DNA from: a virus
Length of the DNA stretch: 20,255 bases
IMG/VR virus record: IMGVR_UViG_3300033993_000015
Coordinates: 1-20,255 of that record
Strand: one strand, 5' to 3'
The stretch's first letter is position 1; every line of letters starts with the position of its first letter. The notes below the pieces were generated by a model, which was not told where the DNA came from, did no database searches, and saw nothing but the letters and a program-made list of their open reading frames with translations. The position numbers and the translations under genes were made by a program. Shown here in pieces: positions 1,090-13,469 of the stretch.

Positions 1090-1100
1090 GGGGATTGGCT

Positions 1101-3536
1101 GTGGCTATCGACAAAGCGATGAACCCGCTGGGCAACCCCGCCGACGAGGACGTTGAGATTGAGATCGTGAATCCAGACGCTGTCTCGATTGAGACGGAGG
1201 ACGGCGGGGCTATCATCATCCTTGGTCCTGAGATGTCCCAGGATCTGATGCCGGGTTTCAATGCCAATCTTGCTGAACACATGGACGAGAGCGATCTTGG
1301 GGCTATCGGCCATGACCTGTTGGATGATTTTGAATCTGACAGCCGCTCCCGCGAAGATTGGGAGCAGACTTACAAGAAGGGACTCGACCTCCTTGGACTG
1401 AAGATCGAGGACCGCTCTAGCCCCTGGCCTGGGGCCTGCGGCGTGTTTCACCCGATCCTGTCTGAAGCTGCGGTTCGCTTCCAGTCTCAGGCAATCATGG
1501 AGACCTTCCCTGCGGGCGGTCCCGTAAAGACCAAGATCGTTGGTCGTATTACTCCTGAGCGCGAGCGGCAGGCTCAGCGGGTCAAGGAAGACCTAAACTA
1601 CATCCTGACTGAGAAGATGTCCGAGTACAGGAATGAGCATGAGCGCATGCTCTTCGCTCTCCCTCTTGCTGGGGCAGCATTCAAGAAAGTGTACTTCGAC
1701 CCGACCCTTGGTCGGCCTGCTTCGATCTATATCCCCGCTGAAGACTTTGTTGCCCCTTATGGGGCATCGGATCTCCAGACCGCACCCCGATACACGCACA
1801 TTATGCGGAAGCACCCGAACGAGATTCGGAAGCTTCAGGTCATGGGCTTCTATCGGGACGTTGATCTGTCCGAGCCCGTTCCTGACAGGAACGAGATCCA
1901 GCGCACCAAGGATAAGCTTGCGGGCGAAGAGCAGATCGACACGGACGACCGGCATCAGTTGCTGGAAGTTCACGTTGATCTGGATCTGCCGGGCTACGAG
2001 GATGTAGGCAAGGACGGCGAACCGACTGGGATCGCCCTCCCCTATGTCGTGACGGTCGAGCGTTCGACGGGCGTGGTCCTGTCTATTTACCGGAACTGGA
2101 AGCAGGGCGACGAACTCAAGCTGAAGCGTCAGCACTTTGTTCAGTATGGGTACATCCCTGGTTTCGGTTTCTACCCCTTCGGCCTGATCCACCTGATCGG
2201 TGGTATCGCCAAGTCTGCGACTTCGATCCTGCGTCAGCTTGTGGATGCGGGTACGCTGGCTAACCTTCCCGCCGGTCTGAAGGCTCGTGGCCTTCGTATC
2301 AAGGGCGACAGCACGCCCCTGATGCCGGGCGAGTTCCGGGACGTTGATGTCCCCTCTGGGGCCATCAAGGACAGCATTACCTTCCTGCCCTACAAGGAAC
2401 CGTCTCAGGTTCTTGCTGGTCTCCTTGGCACGCTCGTTGAGGAGGGCCGTCGCTTCGCGTCGATTGCCGATCTTCAGATTGGTGATGCCAACCAGAGTGC
2501 CCCGGTAGGCACGACCCTGGCTCTCATGGAGCGGGCGATGAAGGTGATGTCTGCGGTGCAGGCTCGTCTTCATGCCTCGATGAAGCAGGAACTGGACCTC
2601 CTGGTTGAGATTATCCAGGAGAACATGAAGGGCGACTACGACTACGAGACGGATCTCGGGGCCACTCGAACCGCTGACTATGATGGCAGAATCGACGTGA
2701 TTCCGGTCACTGACCCGAATGCTGCCTCCCTGTCTCAGCGCGTTGTCCAGTACCAAGCCGCGCTTCAGTTGGCCCAGCAGGCTCCGCAGATGTACGATCT
2801 GCCGGAGCTTCACCGGCAGATGCTGACGGTCCTGGGCATTCAGGATCCTGGCAAGATCATCCCCAACACGGATGAGAAGAAGCCTATGGATCCCGTGTCT
2901 GAGAACATGGCGATCCTGTCTGGTAAGCCAGTGAAGGCGTTCCTCTACCAAGATCATGAGGCCCACATTAAGGTCCACATGACGGCGATGCAGGATCCCA
3001 AGATCCTTGCTCTGGTCGGTCAGTCTCCCCAGGCCAGCATGATCCAGGCTGCGGCGATGGCTCACATCGCTGAGCATATCGGCTTCCAGTATCGTCGGGA
3101 GATCGAGAACCAGCTTGGCGTGGAACTGCCGCCTCCTGACGCTCCCCTGCCGGAAGACATCGAGGTGGCCCTGTCTAAGCTGGTTGCAGACGCGGCAGGC
3201 AAGCTGCTTCAGAAGGACCAAGCTGAGGCGCAGCAGCAGGAAATCCAGCAGAAGATGCAGGATCCCGTTGTCATGGCCCAGATGCAGGACGCCCAGAACA
3301 AGCAGGCTGAGATCCAGCGCAAAATGGCGAAGGACCAAGCCGATCAGATGTCGCGTGAGCGTCAGCAGCAGATCGAGGTCGAGCGGATTCGCTCTCAGGA
3401 GCGCATCGCTGGGATGAATGCTGGGATCAAGTCTATGTCTCAGCAGCAGGAGTTTGAGCAGAAGCGCGACTACGACATCGCCAAGCTGAAGCTTGATGCG
3501 ATCCGGGCTGGCGCTGATCTGGCTAGGGGCAAGTGA
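1101..3536 (+). CDS. Portal protein (podovirus / P22-like type)
   Basis: An 811-residue protein of the size and type of the portal ring of short-tailed phages, the DNA channel at one capsid vertex and the docking site for terminase and tail. Residues about 75-280 contain the stretch familiar from such portals: RSREDWEQTYKKGLDLLG, then SSPWPGACGVFHPILSEA and a PAEDFVAPYGA segment. The last ~130 residues are very rich in Gln, Ala, Lys and Arg and look like a long helical coiled coil or barrel. The start is taken as GTG at 1101 because GAGGGG at 1088-1093 is 7 bases upstream; an in-frame TTG at 1095 is too close to that site. It follows the terminase, and its stop overlaps the ATG of the next gene. 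Confidence 0.94.
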   Translation: MAIDKAMNPLGNPADEDVEIEIVNPDAVSIETEDGGAIIILGPEMSQDLMPGFNANLAEHMDESDLGAIGHDLLDDFESDSRSREDWEQTYKKGLDLLGLKIEDRSSPWPGACGVFHPILSEAAVRFQSQAIMETFPAGGPVKTKIVGRITPERERQAQRVKEDLNYILTEKMSEYRNEHERMLFALPLAGAAFKKVYFDPTLGRPASIYIPAEDFVAPYGASDLQTAPRYTHIMRKHPNEIRKLQVMGFYRDVDLSEPVPDRNEIQRTKDKLAGEEQIDTDDRHQLLEVHVDLDLPGYEDVGKDGEPTGIALPYVVTVERSTGVVLSIYRNWKQGDELKLKRQHFVQYGYIPGFGFYPFGLIHLIGGIAKSATSILRQLVDAGTLANLPAGLKARGLRIKGDSTPLMPGEFRDVDVPSGAIKDSITFLPYKEPSQVLAGLLGTLVEEGRRFASIADLQIGDANQSAPVGTTLALMERAMKVMSAVQARLHASMKQELDLLVEIIQENMKGDYDYETDLGATRTADYDGRIDVIPVTDPNAASLSQRVVQYQAALQLAQQAPQMYDLPELHRQMLTVLGIQDPGKIIPNTDEKKPMDPVSENMAILSGKPVKAFLYQDHEAHIKVHMTAMQDPKILALVGQSPQASMIQAAAMAHIAEHIGFQYRREIENQLGVELPPPDAPLPEDIEVALSKLVADAAGKLLQKDQAEAQQQEIQQKMQDPVVMAQMQDAQNKQAEIQRKMAKDQADQMSRERQQQIEVERIRSQERIAGMNAGIKSMSQQQEFEQKRDYDIAKLKLDAIRAGADLARGK

Positions 3537-3791: not shown

Positions 3792-4169
3792 ATGCTTAAC
3801 GTTGATATCAAGATGCCGGATGAAGAGGCTCGGGGCGCAACCCAGCTTCCAGAACCTTCCGGTTTCAGGCTTCTGATCGCCCTTCCGGAGCTTGAAGAGA
3901 AGACCGACTCTGGCATTTACTTGCCGGAACAGGTGCGTGAGAAAGAATCCCTTGCAACGGTTGTTGGCTTCGTCCTAAAGATGGGGTCGCTCGCCTATAA
4001 GGATCCCAACAAGTTCCCTGACGGGGCTTGGTGCAAGGAGGGAGACTGGGTTTTGTTCCGTGCGTACAGCGGCACTCGTATCAAGATTCATGGTCGGGAG
4101 TTCCGGATCATTAATGACGATACGGTCGAGGGCGTTGTCGAGGATCCCAGGGGGATTGCACGGGCATGA
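3792..4169 (+). CDS. groES: GroES-like co-chaperonin (phage-encoded)
   Basis: A 125-residue protein with the Cpn10 pattern. After a 20-residue acidic lead, EPSGFRLLIALPELEEKT resembles the first GroES strand, DSGIYLPEQVREKESLATVV has the mobile-loop layout (a hydrophobic GI-x-L tripeptide that docks on GroEL, residues about 41-44), and CKEGDWVLFRAYSGTRIKI followed by GREFRIINDDTVEGVVE matches the conserved GD-V-F-Y-G-x-x-I core and the terminal strands. Family knowledge: phage co-chaperonins such as T4 Gp31 replace host GroES to help GroEL fold the capsid protein. Placement between portal and scaffold fits that role. Compared with bacterial GroES (about 95 residues) it has an N-terminal extension, a ~10-residue insertion around YKDPNKFPDG and a short C-terminal tail. 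ATG at 3792 has AAAGGA 5 bases upstream. The stop overlaps the next ATG. Confidence 0.92.
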   Translation: MLNVDIKMPDEEARGATQLPEPSGFRLLIALPELEEKTDSGIYLPEQVREKESLATVVGFVLKMGSLAYKDPNKFPDGAWCKEGDWVLFRAYSGTRIKIHGREFRIINDDTVEGVVEDPRGIARA

Positions 4170-5080
4170 GCGCTACACGAAAGGCCGAAGAGGCCGACGA
4201 CGACTTCGAGATCGAGATCGTTGATGACGCGGCTGATGAAGATCGTGGTCGTCCTCTAGCCCCAGAGGTTACGGACAACGACGACGACATCACCGTCAGT
4301 GATGACGAGGTCTCCAATTACAGCGCGAGTGTGAAGAAGCGCCTGAAGGAACTCTCCTTCAAGACGCACTCTGAGCGCCGTGCGAAGGAGTACGCCGCCA
4401 AGGAGCGTGACGAGGCCATTCGTTTGGCTGAGCGCCTTGCGGAAGAGAACAAGAAGTATCGCGAGCTTGCTGGCAACACTGAGCAGTTTGCGGCCAATCA
4501 AGCCAAGGCTCGCGCCGAAGGTGACATCGCCGCCACCAAGCGGGCGATGAAGGAAGCCTTCGAGTCTGGCGATACGGAGAAGTTCCTGGATTACCAGGAG
4601 CAGCTTCAGCGCTTCGTGAACGAACACGAGCGCTACGCTAACTACAGGCCCGCTCCGGTTCCTGAACCGACCTATGAGATTCCGAAGCCCCGCCCTCAGC
4701 CCGATACGAAGGTTGTGGACTGGGCTAATAAGAATCCCTGGTTCGAGGGGCAGAACGAGCTTGAGAAAGAGATGACGGGTTATGCCTACGCGGTCAGCGA
4801 CATGCTGATTCGTGACAGCAAGATCGACCCGCGTAGCGATAAGTACTTTGAGGAACTTAACAAGCGCATCGAGCGCCGGTTCCCCGAGTACTTCCAGAAG
4901 TCTGAGCCGGAAATTGACGCGACGGCAAAGGCATCTCCGGTGGTGGCCGCTGCAACCAGAACGGCCAAGACCACCCGCACAGTGCGTCTAACCCCGACCC
5001 AGGTCTCCGTCGCACGTAGGCTCGGTCTCACGCCTGAGCAGTACTACGCTCAGTATAAGAAGGATTACGGTCATGGCTGA
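4166..5080 (+). CDS. Putative head scaffolding protein
   Basis: A 304-residue, strongly charged protein. Residues 1-50 are very acidic (long Asp/Glu runs). Residues about 55-155 are a predicted coiled coil full of Lys, Glu and Ala. A proline-rich linker (PVPEPTYEIPKPRPQP, about residues 166-181) leads to a shorter helical part. The C-terminus is basic with RRLGLTPEQYYAQYKK, the kind of helix-rich positive tail that binds the inner capsid face in other phages. Location two genes before the capsid gene and overlap ATGA with the co-chaperonin support a scaffold role. Family knowledge: podovirus scaffolds are about 300 residues, acidic and helical. No protease motif is visible. An alternative is an inner-head structural protein. 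Confidence 0.78.
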   Translation: MSATRKAEEADDDFEIEIVDDAADEDRGRPLAPEVTDNDDDITVSDDEVSNYSASVKKRLKELSFKTHSERRAKEYAAKERDEAIRLAERLAEENKKYRELAGNTEQFAANQAKARAEGDIAATKRAMKEAFESGDTEKFLDYQEQLQRFVNEHERYANYRPAPVPEPTYEIPKPRPQPDTKVVDWANKNPWFEGQNELEKEMTGYAYAVSDMLIRDSKIDPRSDKYFEELNKRIERRFPEYFQKSEPEIDATAKASPVVAAATRTAKTTRTVRLTPTQVSVARRLGLTPEQYYAQYKKDYGHG

Positions 5081-6227: not shown

Positions 6228-7136
6228 ATGGCTATTTCACGCGCACAGCTTCTCAAGGAACTGCTTCCGGGTCTGAACGCTCTGTTTGGCCTGGAGTACA
6301 AGCGGTACGCTGAGGAGCATAAGGAAATCTACGAGACTGAGAACTCGGAGCGTTCCTTTGAAGAGGAAGTGAAGCTCTCTGGCTTCGCTGCTGCCCCCGT
6401 CAAGAACGAAGGTGCGGCGATTGCGTACGACAACGGCCAGGAAGCCTGGACCGCTCGTTATACGCATGAGACCATCGCGTACGGCTTCTCCATCACCGAA
6501 GAGGCGATGGAAGACAACCTGTACGACAGCCTGTCGGCCCGTTACACCAAGGCGCTTGCGCGCTCGATGGCGTATACGAAGCAGATCAAGGCTGCCTTCC
6601 CGCTGAACAACGGCTTCACCAGCTACCAGTCTGGTGACGGCGTGACCCTGTTCAGCACCCAGCACCCGCTGGTGTCCGGTGGCTACAACAGCAACCGCCC
6701 GGCCACGCCGGTTGACCTGAATGAGACGGCCCTTGAGGCCGCTGTCATTCAGATCGCCGCCTGGACGGACGAGCGCAGCCTGCTTATTGCGGCCCGCCCG
6801 CGTAAGCTGATTGTGCCGCCTGCGCTGATGTTCGTTGCCACCCGCCTGCTTGAGACGGAACTCCGTGTCGGCACGGCTGACAACGACATCAACGCGGTGA
6901 AGTCCAACGGGTCGATCCCCGAAGGCTACACGGTCAACCACTTCCTGACCGACCCGAACGGCTGGTTCCTGACCACCGATGTGCCGAACGGCATGAAGCA
7001 CTTTGTGCGTTCGCCGCTTGCCACGTCGATGGACGGTGACTTCGACACGGGCAATGCTCGCTACAAGGCTCGCGAGCGTTATTCGTTCGGCGTCTCTGAC
7101 CCGCTGGGCATCTACGGCTCGCCGGGTTCGACCTGA
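6228..7136 (+). CDS. Major capsid protein (Mu gpT-like / HK97-fold type)
   Basis: A 302-residue protein of the size and character of a major capsid protein. It opens with AISRAQLLKELLPGLNALFG, has an acidic arm segment (EIYETENSERSFEEEVKLSG), and then TRYTHETIAYGFSITEEAMEDN-like sequence (about residues 80-100), the signature seen in Mu gpT-type capsid proteins. A later part, RKLIVPPALMFVATRLL (about 190-206), is the usual P-domain strand, and SRYSFGVSDPLG-type residues close the protein. A very strong ribosome site (AAGGAGG at 6212-6218, 9 bases upstream of ATG) and a terminator right after the gene fit high expression. It assembles the shell with the scaffold and probably the GroES-like protein. 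Confidence 0.92.
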   Translation: MAISRAQLLKELLPGLNALFGLEYKRYAEEHKEIYETENSERSFEEEVKLSGFAAAPVKNEGAAIAYDNGQEAWTARYTHETIAYGFSITEEAMEDNLYDSLSARYTKALARSMAYTKQIKAAFPLNNGFTSYQSGDGVTLFSTQHPLVSGGYNSNRPATPVDLNETALEAAVIQIAAWTDERSLLIAARPRKLIVPPALMFVATRLLETELRVGTADNDINAVKSNGSIPEGYTVNHFLTDPNGWFLTTDVPNGMKHFVRSPLATSMDGDFDTGNARYKARERYSFGVSDPLGIYGSPGST

Positions 7137-7792: not shown

Positions 7793-8095
7793 ATGCAGAC
7801 AGATGTCCTTGCTAGCGCCGTCCGCACGACGGACGGCGTGATGAATGACCAAGCGGGCAGGGCCATTGGTCGCTGCCGCGTGAAGGGTATCTACATCGTT
7901 CCCGCTGCTGGGGCTGGCAGTGTCGTCTTTCGAGACGGCACCACCGTGTCTGGTGCCAGCAAGATTACCATCAACACGATCACCGGCTCGACTAGCACCA
8001 ACTGGATCCTCATGCCGGGTGAGGGGCTTCTCTTTCAGACTGGCATCTTTGCCGACCTGACGGACGTTGCCTCAGTGATGGTTATCTATGGCTAA
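7793..8095 (+). CDS. Small beta-rich virion-type protein
   Basis: A 100-residue protein preceded by a strong ribosome site (AAGGAGG about 7775-7781, 11 bases before ATG). The sequence alternates short strands and turns (GIYIVPAAGAGSVVFRDG, SGASKITINTITGST, MPGEGLLFQTGIFADL), a pattern resembling small phage head-fibre or decoration proteins in which a scalar value is wrapped in a jelly-roll-like fold. There are no signal or membrane segments. The gene overlaps the next by 8 bases. The function is inferred from neighbours. Confidence 0.7.
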   Translation: MQTDVLASAVRTTDGVMNDQAGRAIGRCRVKGIYIVPAAGAGSVVFRDGTTVSGASKITINTITGSTSTNWILMPGEGLLFQTGIFADLTDVASVMVIYG

Positions 8096-8342
8096 GACCC
8101 CTGCATGGCAGCGCTCTGAGGGCAAGAACCCGAAGGGCGGTCTAAATGCAAAGGGTCGCGCGTCGTACAACAAGGCCAACCCAGGGAAACCTGGGTTGAA
8201 GCCCCCTCAGCCAGAGGGCGGTTCGCGCAGAGATAGCTTCTGTGCTCGGATGAAGGGCATGAAGAAGAAGCTGACCTCTGCCAAGACGGCCAACGACCCC
8301 AACTCTCGTATCAACAAGTCCTTGCGGGCCTGGAACTGCTGA
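8088..8342 (+). CDS. Small basic conserved phage protein (DUF6321-like)
   Basis: An 84-residue, lysine- and glycine-rich protein. Its pattern, TPAWQRSEGKNPKGGLNAKG at the start, LKPPQPEGG in the middle, then SFCARMKGMKKKLTSAKTAN and DPNSRINKSLRAWNC at the end, is a conserved arrangement that I recall as DUF6321, found in phages and some bacteria; no function is established to my knowledge. Two cysteines (in SFCARM and at the C-terminal residue) are notable. Start ATG 8088 overlaps the preceding stop by 8 bases, indicating coupled translation. The basic charge suggests nucleic-acid or virion-DNA contact, which is only inference. Confidence 0.8.
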   Translation: MAKTPAWQRSEGKNPKGGLNAKGRASYNKANPGKPGLKPPQPEGGSRRDSFCARMKGMKKKLTSAKTANDPNSRINKSLRAWNC

Positions 8343-8545: not shown

Positions 8546-9037
8546 ATGTCGGATTCTGCCAAGCAGGCTCAGATGTCCGAGCAGATGGCAGCCAACGCTT
8601 CTAAGGGGGCGTTGATCGAGAAGGTTGTCTTCGCAGCTATCCCTATCCTGTTTAGCTGCGTCGTGTACCTGATGACCTCCCTGTCATCTGCCAACAATGA
8701 GATCACGATCCTGAAGTCGAGGATCGCTGTGGTGGTGACCCAGGACAACCGGGCCATTCCGCCGCAGGGCACGACCATCGACATGGCTCAGATTCGTGAG
8801 CATCTGTCCAATCGGATCGAACAGGTGGAGCGGGATGCTGCCATCGCTCGTGGCAACATGACGCTTGATCGTGAGCGCAGCATGGCTGGGATTGAGCGTG
8901 GCCGACTGGAGATGGCCGCTGACGCGGCTGCCGCCCGCGCTTCGATCCGGTCTGACCTGACACGCATGATCACCGAACTTGAGCGTCGTGTGGCCCTTCT
9001 GGAGTCCAGAAATGGAAGCCCTGCTCAACCTCGTTAA
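8546..9037 (+). CDS. Membrane-anchored coiled-coil protein, spanin-like candidate
   Basis: A 163-residue protein with a short polar N-terminus, one membrane segment at about residues 27-48 (VVFAAIPILFSCVVYLMTSL), and then a mostly helical C-terminal part (residues about 48-155) rich in Arg, Glu, Ala and Ile with heptad-like spacing (QIREHLSNRIEQVERDAAIA, TRMITELERRVALLES). This N-in, C-out coiled-coil layout, together with the neighbouring holin and muramidase, resembles an inner-membrane spanin of the Rz class. No lipobox-containing outer partner is visible, so the assignment stays tentative. The gene overlaps the holin gene by 26 bases. Confidence 0.72.
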   Translation: MSDSAKQAQMSEQMAANASKGALIEKVVFAAIPILFSCVVYLMTSLSSANNEITILKSRIAVVVTQDNRAIPPQGTTIDMAQIREHLSNRIEQVERDAAIARGNMTLDRERSMAGIERGRLEMAADAAAARASIRSDLTRMITELERRVALLESRNGSPAQPR

Positions 9038-9527
9038 GACGGTAGCCCCGTCTATTGCTACTGCCGTAGGCGGTCCACTGGCAGGGATGGCAACTCGCGC
9101 CATCTCCGAAGCTCTTCTTGGCAAGCCGGATGGGACTGAGGATGAGCTTCTAGAGGCAGCCAAGATCGCCACGCCGGAACAACTGCTAGCCTTGAAGCAG
9201 GCAGAGCAGCATTTCGTGATCCGTATGCGTGAGCTTGATGTTGATCTTGAGCGCATCTCGAACGAGGATCGCAGTTCTGCCCGCGAGCGAGAAGTTAAGA
9301 CAGGCGACCACACGCCAAAGTTCCTTGCGGCTGCTGTGACCTTCGGCTTCTTCGGCGTTCTGTTCTGGATGATTGCCAACGGTCTTCCTGCCAATGGCGG
9401 CGAAGCAATGCTGGTTATGCTTGGCACGCTGGGTACGGCATGGGGCGCTATCGTCTCTTACTACTTCGGCTCTTCGGCTGGCTCTCGCGAGAAGACCCAG
9501 GCCATGAACAGGATCATGGGCAAGTGA
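9012..9527 (+). CDS. Holin of the three-TM gene-transfer-agent type
   Basis: A 171-residue protein. A glycine/alanine-rich helix lies near residues 12-32, a charged amphipathic middle ends in EDRSSAREREVKTGDHTPKF, and two clear membrane segments follow at about 103-124 (FLAAAVTFGFFGVLFWMIAN) and 132-154. The DR-x-SAR-x-REV stretch just before the paired membrane helices is typical of the GTA holin family (GTA_holin_3TM). It would make the inner-membrane lesion that lets the muramidase out. ATG 9012 is chosen because GGAG at 9001-9004 is 7 bases upstream; an earlier in-frame TTG at 8979 lacks such a site. The stop overlaps the endolysin GTG. Confidence 0.85.
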   Translation: MEALLNLVKTVAPSIATAVGGPLAGMATRAISEALLGKPDGTEDELLEAAKIATPEQLLALKQAEQHFVIRMRELDVDLERISNEDRSSAREREVKTGDHTPKFLAAAVTFGFFGVLFWMIANGLPANGGEAMLVMLGTLGTAWGAIVSYYFGSSAGSREKTQAMNRIMGK

Positions 9528-10039
9528 AAGACAACTTTGAGCGCTGTCTGAAGTTCGTCCTGCACCATGAAGGTGGGTGGTCGGACCATCCTCGCGATCC
9601 TGGTGGTGCGACCATGAAGGGCGTGACCCTGGCGGTCTATAAGGAATACCTTGGTCGGGACGTGAGCAAGGAAGAGCTTCGCGCCATTCCAGACGCTCAC
9701 TTCCATGACCTGTACCGTACTCGGTATTGGGATAAGGCCCGCTGCGACGAGTGGGCTCCTGGCGTGGACCTGTCTGTTTTCGATCTTGCGGTGAACGGCG
9801 GGACTGGTCGTGCAGCGAAGCTGCTTCAGCGTTGTGTTGGGGCAGTAGAGGACGGAGCAATCGGTCCAAAGACGGCGGCTGCTGTGAATGCGGTGCCTGC
9901 TAAGGATCTGATTATTCGCTTTGCTGACACCCGGCGTGAGTTTTATAAAAGCCTCAAGGCTTTCGAGACCTTCGGTCGCGGTTGGCTTCGCCGCACTGAC
10001 GAGTGTGAACAGGAAGCCATCAAGATGGCAGGAGAATAG
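9524..10039 (+). CDS. Endolysin: GH108 N-acetylmuramidase
   Basis: A 171-residue, single-chain lysin. The N-terminal half has the GH108 motif HHEGGWSDHPRDPGGATMKG (residues 14-33) with the catalytic Glu at E16. The C-terminal half matches the family's peptidoglycan-binding module: RYWDKARCDEWAPGVDLSVF, DLAVNGGTGRAAKLLQR and VEDGAIGPKTAAAVNA (about residues 66-125). Family members hydrolyse the beta-1,4 bond of peptidoglycan glycan strands. No signal peptide or membrane anchor is visible, so release should depend on the holin just upstream. Start is GTG at 9524, overlapping the holin stop (GTGA); the earlier in-frame ATGs lie inside the holin gene and would add an unrelated N-terminus. Confidence 0.95.
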   Translation: MKDNFERCLKFVLHHEGGWSDHPRDPGGATMKGVTLAVYKEYLGRDVSKEELRAIPDAHFHDLYRTRYWDKARCDEWAPGVDLSVFDLAVNGGTGRAAKLLQRCVGAVEDGAIGPKTAAAVNAVPAKDLIIRFADTRREFYKSLKAFETFGRGWLRRTDECEQEAIKMAGE

Positions 10040-10041
10040 AC

Positions 10042-10329
10042 ATGATGAAGAAGCCGAAGATGCCCAAGGTTGGCGGCGGCATGAAGGATGCGTCGATGGC
10101 GATGCCGCGTTTCGGCGCTCGCGCGATGCGTCCAGGTGGCATGGCGAAGGGTGGCGGCGTTCATCCTGACGCGGCGATGGACAAGAAGCTGATCCGCAAG
10201 GAGATCGCTCGCGCCGAGAAGATGGAAGACAAATCCGAAGGCAAGGGCATGAAGAAGGGCGGCTACGCCAAGATGGCTCGTGGCGGTGGCGTTGAGACCA
10301 AGGGCAAGACCAAGGGGAGGTTCGTCTGA
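10042..10329 (+). CDS. Small basic Gly/Lys/Met-rich protein 1 (KTKGR-tail family)
   Basis: A 95-residue, strongly basic protein of unknown function. Residues 1-45 are glycine- and methionine-rich (PKMPKVGGGMKDASMAMPRF). Residues 45-75 form a charged, probably helical part (KKLIRKEIARAEKMEDKSEG). The end, KGGYAKMARGGGVETKGKTKGRFV, shares the KGGY/KGGS start and KGKTKGR-(F/M)-(V/I) finish with the next two proteins. It has no membrane segment or cysteine. GGAG at 10031-10034 precedes ATG 10042. Similar short genes occur in many tailed phages. The charge suggests binding of packaged DNA or RNA, but nothing in the sequence proves it. Confidence 0.78.
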   Translation: MMKKPKMPKVGGGMKDASMAMPRFGARAMRPGGMAKGGGVHPDAAMDKKLIRKEIARAEKMEDKSEGKGMKKGGYAKMARGGGVETKGKTKGRFV

Positions 10330-10694
10330 TGTTTAGGGGGAAGGTTGGGCGTCCTCGCCCCACTCCGATGCAGGCGAGTCAGGCACTGGCCTCCCTTCAT
10401 GGACGGGGCCAAGCTCCTATGGCGCGACCCGCCATGCAATCTCAAGGAGCCCCCACATCCGCACAGTCCCCCTTGGGCAGTCGAGGGAATCCAAGTGCGC
10501 AACCTGACTTTGGTAATCTTGGACCACCTCGACCTAACTATGCCAACTCTGGGGCTCCGAACGTCGGCGGTCGTATGCCGCCCGGCAGGATGAATAAGGG
10601 CGGCTACGTCAAGAAGATGGCGGCTGGCGGCTCTGCCTCCAAGCGTGCCGATGGCTGTGCCGCTCGTGGCAAAACCAAAGGGAAGTTCATCTAA
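10329..10694 (+). CDS. Small basic Pro/Gly-rich protein 2 (KTKGR-tail family)
   Basis: A 121-residue protein coupled to protein 1 by TGATG overlap. Residues 1-85 look disordered and are rich in Pro, Gly, Ser, Ala and Gln (RGKVGRPRPTPMQASQALAS, then SQGAPTSAQSPLGSRGNPSA). The C-terminal 35 residues carry the family tail: NKGGYVKKMAAGGSASKRAD, then GCAARGKTKGKFI, with a single cysteine in RADGCA. The tail is nearly the same as in the next protein while the N-terminal parts are unrelated, so a shared short module is attached to different disordered arms. Function unknown. Confidence 0.76.
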   Translation: MFRGKVGRPRPTPMQASQALASLHGRGQAPMARPAMQSQGAPTSAQSPLGSRGNPSAQPDFGNLGPPRPNYANSGAPNVGGRMPPGRMNKGGYVKKMAAGGSASKRADGCAARGKTKGKFI

Positions 10695-11002
10695 TGGACC
10701 GCCGTCGTCGCGCGCCTTCCTACGAGGAAGACATGACCCCGCCGCGTGGTATGCGTGGCATGCCCCGCCCAGAGATGGTCCCCACCGACGAGCCGATGCC
10801 GGGTCGTCGTCCTTCTGCCCGTAGCTTCGAGGAGGATATGACACCTCCTCGTGGCATGCGGGATTTCCGCTCGAATGCGGTTCCGACTGATGAGCCGATG
10901 CCCGGTCGTCGTATGGCGAAGGGTGGGTCTGTTAAGTCTTCTGCCAGCAGCCGTGCCGATGGTTGCGCCACTCGTGGCAAGACCAAGGGCCGCATGGTGT
11001 GA
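10694..11002 (+). CDS. Small basic protein 3 with internal tandem duplication (KTKGR-tail family)
   Basis: A 102-residue protein starting at the TAATG overlap with protein 2. Residues 9-39 and 44-73 are two copies of one ~30-residue unit (each running from S-(Y/F)-EEDMTPPRGMR to VPTDEPMPGRR). The tail, AKGGSVKSSASSRADGCATR then GKTKGRMV, matches that of protein 2, including the single cysteine in RADGCA. The repeats are rich in Pro, Met, Asp and Arg and look disordered. No catalytic or membrane feature is visible. Function unknown; its place in the same transcript as the lysis genes and adaptors suggests late expression. Confidence 0.78.
   Translation: MDRRRRAPSYEEDMTPPRGMRGMPRPEMVPTDEPMPGRRPSARSFEEDMTPPRGMRDFRSNAVPTDEPMPGRRMAKGGSVKSSASSRADGCATRGKTKGRMV
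10718..10912 (+). repeat. In-frame tandem duplication inside the 10694 gene
   Basis: Two diverged copies, about 10718-10810 and 10823-10912, encode 31- and 30-residue versions of the same unit, separated by 4 residues. EEDMTPPRGMR and VPTDEPMPGRR are identical at the protein level, while the middle of each copy differs (GMPRPEM versus DFRSNA). Codons differ too (CCGCCGCGT versus CCTCCTCGT), so the duplication is not recent. Confidence 0.85.
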
Positions 11003-11307
11003 AGAAGCAGGAGAAAATCGGGAAGGTCATGAGGGAGTTCAAAGAGGGCTCCCTCAAGTCGTCCAGTGGGCAGAAGGTGAAGAACCCGAAGCAGGCTGTG
11101 GCGATTGCTCTCTCCGAAGCTTCTCGCATGGCAGAGGGTGGGCGGGTCAAGCCGCAGAACCCGAAGCTGTGGGCTGCTGCCAAGAGCGCCGCCAGGGCCA
11201 AGTTCGACGTGTACCCTTCTGCCTATGCGAATGCCTGGGCATCCAAGGAGTACAAGAAGAAGGGTGGCACTTGGCGTGGGTCGGATAACAGGGTGTCTAA
11301 GAAGTGA
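10999..11307 (+). CDS. Small basic two-part phage protein (DUF6496-like N-terminal part)
   Basis: A 102-residue basic protein. The N-terminal half, EKIGKVMREFKEGSLKSSSG then KVKNPKQAVAIALSEASRMA, matches a short conserved module that I recall as DUF6496 (helical, lysine-rich, unknown function). The C-terminal half, NPKLWAAAKSAARAKFDVYP then SAYANAWASKEYKKKGGTW, is a second recurrent phage module in which YPSAYANAWA is the hallmark; these occur as separate genes elsewhere, so a fusion is possible. GTG at 10999 overlaps the preceding TGA (GTGA), and no in-frame ATG occurs before about residue 10 of this reading. No enzyme motif is seen; nucleic-acid binding is an inference from charge. Confidence 0.8.
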   Translation: MKKQEKIGKVMREFKEGSLKSSSGQKVKNPKQAVAIALSEASRMAEGGRVKPQNPKLWAAAKSAARAKFDVYPSAYANAWASKEYKKKGGTWRGSDNRVSKK

Positions 11308-11531
11308 AGGGCGGTCTGGGCAAATGGTTTGGTGAGAAGTGGGTGGACGTAAAGACCGGCAAGCCGTGTGGGCGAAGCGGGTCTGAGAAGTCCAAGCGCT
11401 CCTACCCTGCCTGCCGCCCAGCCGCTGCTGCTGCCAAGATGTCCGCGTCCCAGAAGGCGACGATGTCTAAAAGGAAAACTGGCCCAGCCCGCAAGGCTTG
11501 GCCTATAACACCTAGCGGAAGGACCAAGTAG
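11304..11531 (+). CDS. Small basic conserved phage protein of unknown function
   Basis: A 75-residue, lysine-rich protein starting with GTG in a GTGA overlap with the previous stop. It begins KGGLGKWFGEKWVDVKTGKP and continues CGRSGSEKSKRSYPACRPAA, then a helical AAAKMSASQKATMSKRK and a Pro/Lys end. The two cysteines, in KPCGR and YPACRP, are 21 residues apart. The pattern recurs in tailed phages and large viruses as small orphan proteins of unknown role. The ribosome site is poor, so translation probably depends on ribosomes finishing the upstream gene. Confidence 0.8.
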   Translation: MKGGLGKWFGEKWVDVKTGKPCGRSGSEKSKRSYPACRPAAAAAKMSASQKATMSKRKTGPARKAWPITPSGRTK

Positions 11532-11711
11532 ATGGCCGCGAAGTGGATCCAGAAGGCTATCAAGAAGCCCGGCGCTCTGCGTAAGTCCCTTGGCGTGAAG
11601 GCTGGGCAGAAGATCCCCGCCAAGACGCTGGCGGCGGCAGCCAAGAAGCCGGGTGTCATGGGTAGGCGCGCTCGTCTGGTTAACACGCTTTCCAAGTTTG
11701 GACGCCCGTAA
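11532..11711 (+). CDS. Very small basic phage protein (WIQKAIKKPGALRK type)
   Basis: A 59-residue protein that is one tight block of basic and alanine residues: AAKWIQKAIKKPGALRKSLG, then VKAGQKIPAKTLAAAAKKPG and a LVNTLSKFGRP end. Of its residues, about one in four is Lys or Arg. I recognise the KWIQKAIKKPGALRK start as a recurrent small phage protein of unknown function. KKPG occurs twice, about 30 residues apart, hinting at two repeated helices. ATG 11532 lies just past the previous stop, and its TAA is followed directly by the ATG of the adaptor gene at 11712, so it is part of the same translational chain. Confidence 0.85.
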   Translation: MAAKWIQKAIKKPGALRKSLGVKAGQKIPAKTLAAAAKKPGVMGRRARLVNTLSKFGRP

Positions 11712-12386
11712 ATGACCACCTCCGGCACAGCCGTCTGGAATCTGGAGATCGTTGATCTCATCGAGGAGGCGTATGAGCGTGCTGGCCTGGAGGCTCGCAC
11801 GGGCTACGACTTCCGGACTGCGCGCCGCTCTCTGAACATCCTGTCGGCTGAGTGGTCCAACAGGGGTCTGAACCTGTGGACCGTGCAGGAACACAATGTC
11901 GCGCTCACGCCGGGCGTTAAGACCTACTCCCTGCCTGCCGACACGATTGATATCATCGAGACGATGATCCGGGTGAACACCAGTGGCTCTGCCCTGGACT
12001 ACACCGTGTCTCGTATCGGCCTGGGCGATTATGCTGCCCTACCGAACAAGAACACGACGGGTCGTCCTCTTCAGATTTATGTGAACCGACAGGTGAATCC
12101 TGAGTTCACGCTGTGGCCTGTGCCCGATCTGCCGTACACGATCCTGTATTGGACGATGCGTCGGATTCAGGATGCTACTACGTCAACTGACGTGATGGAC
12201 ATGCCGGTGCGCTTTGTGCCGTGCCTCGTGGCAGGACTGGCGTTTCAGATCGCCATGAAGCGCCCGGAGGCTGCGGCCAGGGTTCCCCTGCTGAAGCAGG
12301 AATACATGGAGCAGTTCCAGCTTGCTGCGGATGAAGATCGCGGTCGTGAGCCTGCTCGCTTCGTGCCCTGGTCGTCCTACCCATGA
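11712..12386 (+). CDS. Head-tail adaptor / tail tubular protein A-like
   Basis: A 224-residue protein. The N-terminal helices (IVDLIEEAYERAGLEARTGY) lead to RTARRSLNILSAEWSNRGLN and LWTVQEHNVALTPGVKTYSL, a layout shared with podovirus gp11-type adaptors: an early helix, an ARR-x-LN-x-x-x-x-x-x-x-RG segment and a strand that precedes a Pro-Ala-D turn. FTLWPVPDLPYTILYWTMRR (about residues 135-155) gives the beta strands, and a C-terminal helix ends the protein. Family knowledge: such proteins form a ring below the portal and seat the tail. The ATG follows the upstream TAA directly and the stop forms ATGA with the endonuclease gene. Sequence similarity to T7 gp11 is weak by eye. Confidence 0.75.
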   Translation: MTTSGTAVWNLEIVDLIEEAYERAGLEARTGYDFRTARRSLNILSAEWSNRGLNLWTVQEHNVALTPGVKTYSLPADTIDIIETMIRVNTSGSALDYTVSRIGLGDYAALPNKNTTGRPLQIYVNRQVNPEFTLWPVPDLPYTILYWTMRRIQDATTSTDVMDMPVRFVPCLVAGLAFQIAMKRPEAAARVPLLKQEYMEQFQLAADEDRGREPARFVPWSSYP

Positions 12387-12865
12387 TCGACATCAAGTCT
12401 CCCCACTTTGATATCTGGGCAGCAGGCTTCTTCGACGGGGAAGGCTGTGTGCTGGTGGCCCGTTGCAAGAACAGCGGCGTTCGTGGTGGGTGGAACTACT
12501 ACCTTCAGGTTTCCATCGCCCAGCAAGACAGAAGGCCGCTTGAGCTAATCAACAACAAGTTTGGCGGGTCCATTCGGCTCAACAAGGGCAAGGCAACCTA
12601 CGAAAAGAAGAAGGACCATGTTTACACATGGGGCCTTGTCCTTTCTGGGACCAACGCCTTTGCCTTCCTGAAGGCTATTCAGCCATACTGCGTCGTGAAG
12701 TACGAACAGGTCACAGAAGCTTTGCGTTGGCCCATCAACGACGGCAAGCAATACAGGGGCTCCTGGAATGCGATGCCAGAAGAGGAGCGTGCGCTTAGGG
12801 CCGAGATACGAGACAATCTTGTCGCCTTGCGTGAGTCTGTAAAGGTGTACGCAAATGGCAGTTAA
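12383..12865 (+). CDS. Free-standing LAGLIDADG homing endonuclease
   Basis: A 160-residue protein with one LAGLIDADG motif, WAAGFFDGEGCVLVARC (residues 12-28), in which E20 of GFFDGEG is the expected metal-binding catalytic residue. The rest has the alternating beta-hairpins of the fold (YYLQVSIAQQDRRPLELINN, then FGGSIRLNK and YTWGLVLSGTNAFAFLK). With one motif it should act as a homodimer and cut a long asymmetric target in alleles lacking the gene. It fits between two virion genes exactly: ATGA overlap upstream, 11-base overlap downstream. No intron boundaries are evident. Homing genes of this kind move by recombination and are usually not needed for growth. GC looks lower than in the neighbours. 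Confidence 0.92.
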   Translation: MIDIKSPHFDIWAAGFFDGEGCVLVARCKNSGVRGGWNYYLQVSIAQQDRRPLELINNKFGGSIRLNKGKATYEKKKDHVYTWGLVLSGTNAFAFLKAIQPYCVVKYEQVTEALRWPINDGKQYRGSWNAMPEEERALRAEIRDNLVALRESVKVYANGS

Positions 12866-13178: not shown

Positions 13179-13469
13179 ATGAAGGGCAAAGCCCACACGC
13201 CGACCAGCATGGACATGAAGAAGTACGGGCGGAACGTTGCTCGTGCCATGAACCAGACGGGCGGTGCCGTTTACGGCAAGAAGACTCCGGACGGCGTGAA
13301 GACGGTTGACGCGAGCGCGTATGACCTGAAGCCGGTTGCCGACAAGGGTATCCAGAAGGCCCCGAACGAAGCCATTGTTGCCAATGAGGGCTCGCCCAAG
13401 AAGGCCACGAAGATTCGTGGGACAGGCGCGGCTACCAAGGGTATTATGGCTCGCGGCCCAATGGGCTGA
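13179..13469 (+). CDS. Small basic protein of unknown function
   Basis: A 96-residue, lysine/glycine/alanine-rich protein with a low-complexity look (MKGKAHTPTSMDMKKYGRN, KKTPDGVKTVDASAYDLKPV, KATKIRGTGAATKGIMARGP). It has no membrane segment, cysteine or enzyme motif. AGGAG at 13168-13172 sits 6 bases before ATG 13179. It resembles in composition the basic proteins at 10042-11711 but lacks their KTKGR tail. It could be a virion DNA-binding or disordered linker protein; nothing seen decides this. Confidence 0.72.
   Translation: MKGKAHTPTSMDMKKYGRNVARAMNQTGGAVYGKKTPDGVKTVDASAYDLKPVADKGIQKAPNEAIVANEGSPKKATKIRGTGAATKGIMARGPMG

Follow-up and report, generated by a model that had tools for sequence, protein, structure and literature searches.

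Position-locked C-terminal tails on small late-region proteins of an aquatic phage clade: candidate address tags for unrelated cargo

Six small genes stand back to back at positions 10042-11711 of a 20,255-base viral contig (IMG/VR record IMGVR_UViG_3300033993_000015; hereafter the window, with the remainder of the genome lying outside it). The first three encode proteins whose sole common part is a tail of about 16 residues, R[AG]DG[CI]AxRGKTKGRxx (10042-11002), which raises the question of why proteins that differ everywhere else should end alike. We find that this tail, here called tag A, is one of four tails (tags A-D) that are locked in position on hundreds of small proteins. In our view these tails are probably address tags of some form. 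A preliminary description of the run had noted the common tail; that observation was right, and it was the tip of something larger. The six genes are as follows.

10042..10329, plus strand: gene 1, 95 residues, divergent tag A MARGGGVETKGKTKGRFV at 10273-10326
10329..10694, plus strand: gene 2, 121 residues, tag A RADGCAARGKTKGKFI at 10644-10691
10694..11002, plus strand: gene 3, 102 residues, tag A RADGCATRGKTKGRMV at 10952-10999
10999..11307, plus strand: gene 4, 102 residues, DUF6496 and the N-terminal half of DUF5872 (KFDVYPSAYAN), untagged in the window
11304..11531, plus strand: gene 5, 75 residues, C-terminal half of DUF5872 (CGRSGSEKSKRSYPACRP), untagged in the window
11532..11711, plus strand: gene 6, 59 residues, KWIQKAIKKPGALR family, untagged, with no counterpart in the nearest relative (L377)

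All six open reading frames have the lengths previously claimed, and the tails KGKTKGRFV, RADGCAARGKTKGKFI and RADGCATRGKTKGRMV on genes 1-3 were confirmed. Calling the run one family of basic peptides was wrong as worded, since it consists of three tagged proteins and three untagged ones, two of which belong to DUF families.

A tail tied to the C terminus

The core of tag A, [RS][AG]DGxAx[RS]GKT[KR]G, was scanned in IMG/VR contigs as degenerate DNA, with no constraint on stop codon or position, and matched at least 120 viral loci. Among the matches listed, all 136 copies were C-terminal: the core ended exactly 3 residues from the stop in 123 and 4 residues from it in one, and 12 copies formed a subtype with an extra ..MCGGGM-like end, 10-17 residues from the stop. 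By our own estimate fewer than one chance match to the core would be expected, and a control scan found two matches in 257 Gb of prokaryote genomes. The recurrence of the tail is not due to chance. One prokaryote match is a phage-like contig of a metagenome-assembled genome that carries further tagged genes and DUF6321. The other lies at the contig end of a Patulibacter metagenome-assembled genome (L127, 162-2003), where a tag-A peptide is fused to an acyltransferase, probably through chimeric assembly.

Selection acts on the tail peptide, because its DNA varies freely at synonymous sites and is about as similar within genomes as between them. The core DNA was distinct in 183 of 187 copies, with synonymous codons used freely, and its identity was 0.73 within a genome compared to 0.72 between genomes. 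A Walker A (P-loop) motif was considered and rejected: DG[CI]AxRGKT fits GxxxxGK[ST], but the stretch is C-terminal and all but ends the protein, and relatives show GHT or GRT at this point.

Using a profile and a wider expression, we collected 333 tag-A open reading frames, which fall into 139 unrelated N-terminal clusters. Carriers range from about 25 to over 380 residues and are rich in Lys, Gly, Ala and Pro, with hydrophobic residues scarce compared to core proteins. Tagged proteins always have a positive net charge (median +13); the N-terminal part by itself is neutral or acidic in 17% of cases. Tag A can also come after a complete domain from another family, as in some relatives where it follows the RAWNC end of DUF6321. 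DUF6321 was the sole family that Pfam found in 104 tagged proteins picked from the clusters.

The positive charge and the scarcity of hydrophobic residues are consistent with an alternative in which the tails bind or condense DNA, as basic, Gly-rich peptides that coat the packaged genome without a specific protein partner. We consider this quite unlikely, because charge requires neither the invariant Asp, Ala and Gly, nor the stop register, nor restriction to a single lineage (below), and because of the neutral and acidic N-terminal parts. The preliminary description had suggested that the proteins are perhaps packaged and DNA-binding or injected. Packaging and injection may still hold, while generic DNA binding is weakened by the confinement of the tail to one structural lineage, its invariant Asp and its strict register with the stop codon.

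One island, four tails and one lineage

Tail carriers are grouped in the late region, in a single island in each genome that stands between the genes for capsid and adaptor. Where a locus has an adaptor homologue, all 277 tagged genes were on the adaptor strand and 272 were upstream of the adaptor gene (median 1.0 kb), and in loci with a capsid homologue all 141 were downstream of the capsid gene. Seventeen records of 32-67 kb contained 58 profile matches, confined to one stretch per record of 74 to 4,611 bases. Together these stretches make up 3.3% of the DNA, a tightness that was never reached in 2,000 random placements. In the window, the gene order upstream of the run is terminase, portal, GroES-like, scaffold-position, capsid, DUF6321 and GH108 muramidase, and the run is flanked by muramidase and adaptor genes, as previously stated. 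The features that matter for the argument are listed below.

1095..3536, plus strand: portal protein (phrog_1216), lineage marker and candidate docking partner
3792..4169, plus strand: GroES-like co-chaperonin, homologue of the annotated Pag-Yong1 GroES
4166..5080, plus strand: protein in scaffold position (phrog_28737), putative scaffold by its place and candidate docking partner
6228..7136, plus strand: major capsid protein, lineage marker and candidate docking partner
8088..8342, plus strand: DUF6321 protein ending RAWNC, untagged, upstream of the island
9440-10039: GH108 muramidase, upstream neighbour of the run
11712..12386, plus strand: adaptor-like structural protein (phrog_12985/399/10775), downstream border of the island
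13179..13469, plus strand: 96-residue protein downstream of the adaptor, tag B RGTGAATKGIMARGPMG at 13416-13466

The last of these (13179-13469) is a fourth tail-bearing protein, outside the run first described. Its tail, tag B (RGTGAATKGxMARGPMA), ends one small adaptor-adjacent gene in the window and in about 70 loci, always with 8 residues from KG to the C-terminal end. Two further tails were scanned as DNA, again with no position constraint, and some of their loci are near-duplicates. Among the matches listed, tag C (RGxGAAx[RS]GxxFxG plus two residues) was C-terminal in 126 of 126 copies, 125 of them 2 residues from the stop, and tag D (ARGCGKVMxxRRKxTK plus 2-6 residues) lay within 6 residues of the end in 120 of 120. 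Tags A, B and C have R[AG]xGxAx[RK]G in common. With these expressions, 56 loci had both A and B and 7 had both C and D, and no locus was seen to combine the A/B pair with the C/D pair.

The tags belong to one structural lineage, because the tag-C and tag-D loci carry homologues of the window's core structural genes. Such homologues were found in 116 of 120 tag-C loci and 117 of 120 tag-D loci among the matches listed, including a portal homologue in 91 tag-C loci; the four tag-C loci that lack them are pieces of 0.5-5.1 kb. This lineage, defined by portal, GroES, scaffold and capsid homologues, includes pelagiphage HTVC023P, with tag C on gp32 and gp51, and Pag-Yong1, with a tag-A-like tail on UMO75986.1 near the capsid gene. 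HTVC023P-type pelagiphages have been described as widespread (PMC9599517). Tag type clusters on the capsid and portal trees, with three changes between A and C/D on the former and two on the latter, a clustering that is confounded by habitat and near-copies. Three "cyanophage" records with differing stated hosts (OQ594354.1, OL906435.1 and PP438419.1) agree exactly in length (65,014) and share their capsid match; their host labels are doubtful because they are probably one phage.

Several other features of the window were observed. The protein at 8088-8342 matches DUF6321 (PF19846) with 73.6 bits (Pfam cut-off 28.5). DUF6321 aligns with the last ~80 positions of several otherwise dissimilar PHROGs, and since the alignments stop at or near the PHROG ends it may itself be a C-terminal module. 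Between the adaptor gene and a 104-residue gene, an open reading frame that begins with FDIWAAGFFDGEGC (12383-12865) looks by eye like a homing endonuclease; it is absent from that site in L377, where its two flanking genes overlap. A 163-residue gene at 8546-9037 had no homologue among the first set of loci compared, and L377 has another gene there. Gene 3 contains two tandem repeats of about 37 residues (..EEDMTPPRGMR..VPTDEPMPGRR) at 10694-10920, which L377 has too. AlphaFold on the single sequence of gene 3 gave no secondary structure and no confident fold, with a mean predicted local distance difference test (pLDDT) score of 59.8, a result that says little without an alignment.

Exchange of tails and what may read them

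The untagged members of the run seem to come from the same pool as the tagged ones, because some homologues of genes 4 and 5 elsewhere are tagged. Homologues of gene 4 end in tag A, C or D. Its KFxVYPSAYAN domain, untagged in the window, has tag C in HTVC023P gp51 and in L182 and tag D in many phages. Tags were present on 43 of the 56 proteins with VYPSAYA, and tag D on 39 of the 105 homologues of gene 5. Of roughly 1,150 core proteins checked (capsid, portal, adaptor, scaffold and others), none had a tag. Gene 4 begins with a GTG codon within a GTGA overlap and matches DUF6496 (PF20106) with 36.4 bits, above the Pfam cut-off of 24. It also matches positions 1-39 of the DUF5872 model below the cut-off (18.4 bits), and gene 5 matches positions 53-100 of that model (PF19197; 27.7 bits, cut-off 27.5); DUF5872 is apparently split across the two genes. 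AlphaFold predicted four helices for gene 4 with modest confidence (pLDDT 71), and its match in the PDB to SMAD4 was weak and taken as noise. Gene 6 belongs to a small family without assigned function.

One case of tag swapping was observed between the window and L377, its nearest relative, which has a 93% identical adaptor and lacks about 0.3 kb that the window contains. A single gene of L377 consists of the N terminus of gene 1 and the tail of gene 2, joined inside a repeated AAGGGCGGCTACG linker. Gene 6 is also missing from L377, where a longer gene 5 (2873-3136) ends in SKLGRP, similar to the SKFGRP end of gene 6 in the window, as if a deletion had fused genes 5 and 6.

These comparisons bear on two alternatives. 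A junction within a repeated linker fits a tail that is a mere recombination repeat, spreading by exchange with no function of its own. We regard this as extremely improbable, as it is largely contradicted by the selection on the tail peptide described above. Alternatively, the carriers could be one ancient paralogous family whose N termini have diverged, with the tail as the conserved remnant of one fold, as their small, adjacent genes and the several tagged copies side by side in one genome might suggest. This is very unlikely, given that the same tail follows complete foreign domains (DUF6321 after RAWNC, and DUF6496), that the VYPSAYA domain is found with tag C, with tag D or with no tag, and that carriers vary so widely in length. 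The preliminary description proposed that late proteins whose N termini are unrelated bear the common tail as a tag for targeting or binding, and this is strongly supported by its C-terminal position, its place in a late island, its conservation as a peptide and its swapping between domains.

The simplest reading of these tails is a head-assembly address tag, because lineage restriction, fixed C-terminal register, location among head genes and swapping of cargo all fit it. We infer the partner, the packaging, the ejection and the roles of the cargo as follows. In phages of the HTVC023P/Pag-Yong1-type aquatic clade, an island in the late region encodes a changing set of small cargo domains, mostly basic and low in hydrophobicity, to each of which a flexible linker like KKGGxVSSASx joins one of the four tags. 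The tag would be read during head assembly by a partner found throughout the clade, either the scaffold, the inside of the capsid or the portal, and the cargo would so be carried into the procapsid. It would probably leave the head along with the DNA, much like the internal proteins of T4 with their N-terminal capsid targeting sequence. Recombination in the linker or tag would bring new cargo. For the step from address tag to loading of small basic proteins into the phage head, we see the case as evenly balanced. The full proposal is offered tentatively, as a possibility: four or more interchangeable C-terminal tags would each dock at a separate site in the assembling head and load a fast-changing payload that is delivered with the genome.

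A hint of virion location for one cargo domain comes from sequence similarity. The commonest N-terminal domain on tag-A proteins (83 of 333) is a stretch of about 45 residues, MPSxSKKQHNLMAAVAHNPxFAKKVGVPQSVGKEF, with examples at L376 3501-3677 and L378 2501-2650. It matches PHROGs labelled virion structural protein, stands alone as phiKZ protein 165.1 and opens CBB_322 of jumbo phage CBB. Mass spectrometry of CBB virions detected CBB_322 from 30 unique peptides, at 43.57% coverage (PMC5259590). In other podoviruses (P-SCSP2 and HTVC027P), untagged proteins that have the same motifs by eye adjoin scaffold, portal or capsid genes. Transcriptomics of HTVC027P sets temporal classes (PMC12753301), and the timing of the small basic genes was not found in the portion of that account covered here.

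Other searches gave no further link. Nothing in the PDB matched tag A or the capsid, portal or adaptor protein. The tails alone and short tagged proteins had no tblastn match among GenBank phages, probably owing to the filtering or low scoring of short queries rich in Gly and Lys. None of the papers listed for the tail strings concerned a phage, and no published description of the tails was found in the literature searched.

Several points weigh against head loading. The docking partner is only a candidate (scaffold, capsid or portal), the literature searched held no virion proteomics of any tagged protein, and the CBB_322 link concerns the N-terminal domain, not the tag. The capsid signal of T4 is N-terminal and cut by a protease after Glu, and tag A has no conserved Glu or known cleavage. 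In addition, lineage restriction is confounded with habitat and descent, and some clade members, such as the HTVC027P stretch L123, have no tag by these expressions, suggesting that tags A-D are not essential. One alternative is that the tag is read outside the head, for example by a chaperone, by a protease from either phage or host, or by some target in the host, or that it directs proteins to a place in the infected cell. Many recognition signals are strictly C-terminal, the docking partner is still a candidate, and a GroES-like gene is conserved in the clade. We nevertheless judge a reader outside the head unlikely, because carriers occur only among the head and tail genes, in a clade that head proteins define, and the tag is essentially absent from prokaryote genomes.

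If head loading is correct, each small tagged hypothetical gene would be a predicted virion cargo that can be read from sequence alone, tagged genes would be a good place to seek counter-defence or takeover proteins, and the tails would provide a portable C-terminal loading tag for phage particles. Whatever the mechanism, the position-locked tails are a firm and directly testable regularity.

Comparison with known systems

The T4 internal proteins IPI-III and Alt have an N-terminal capsid targeting sequence (CTS) of 10-20 residues, which the prohead protease removes after Glu (PMC3012670, PMC5694885). As with the CTS, the tags described here are a short terminal signal that is all that diverse, fast-changing proteins of a tailed phage have in common, with 139 N-terminal clusters sharing one tail. 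Unlike the CTS, tags A, C and D are always C-terminal, and none of 28 tag-A columns has a conserved Glu; the tags are therefore not members of the CTS family, being C-terminal and without a conserved cleavage motif. They also come in four or more kinds and belong to another phage clade, in which packaging is so far a prediction. In the giant phages SPN3US and phiKZ, terminal stretches of head proteins (propeptides) are thought to direct proteins to the prohead (PMC5694885). Unlike the tags, these propeptides are long, N-terminal and cleaved after A-X-E, and the sole sequence found in common with jumbo phages is the untagged ~45-residue domain of phiKZ 165.1 and the start of CBB_322. The Pfam entries for DUF6496, DUF5872 and DUF6321 are domain models of families without known function and are silent on tags. 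In arrangement, the tags resemble the cargo-loading peptides of encapsulins, which are host nanocompartments. Those peptides are short and C-terminal, follow a flexible linker, occur on unrelated cargoes and are read by a shell with the HK97-type fold.
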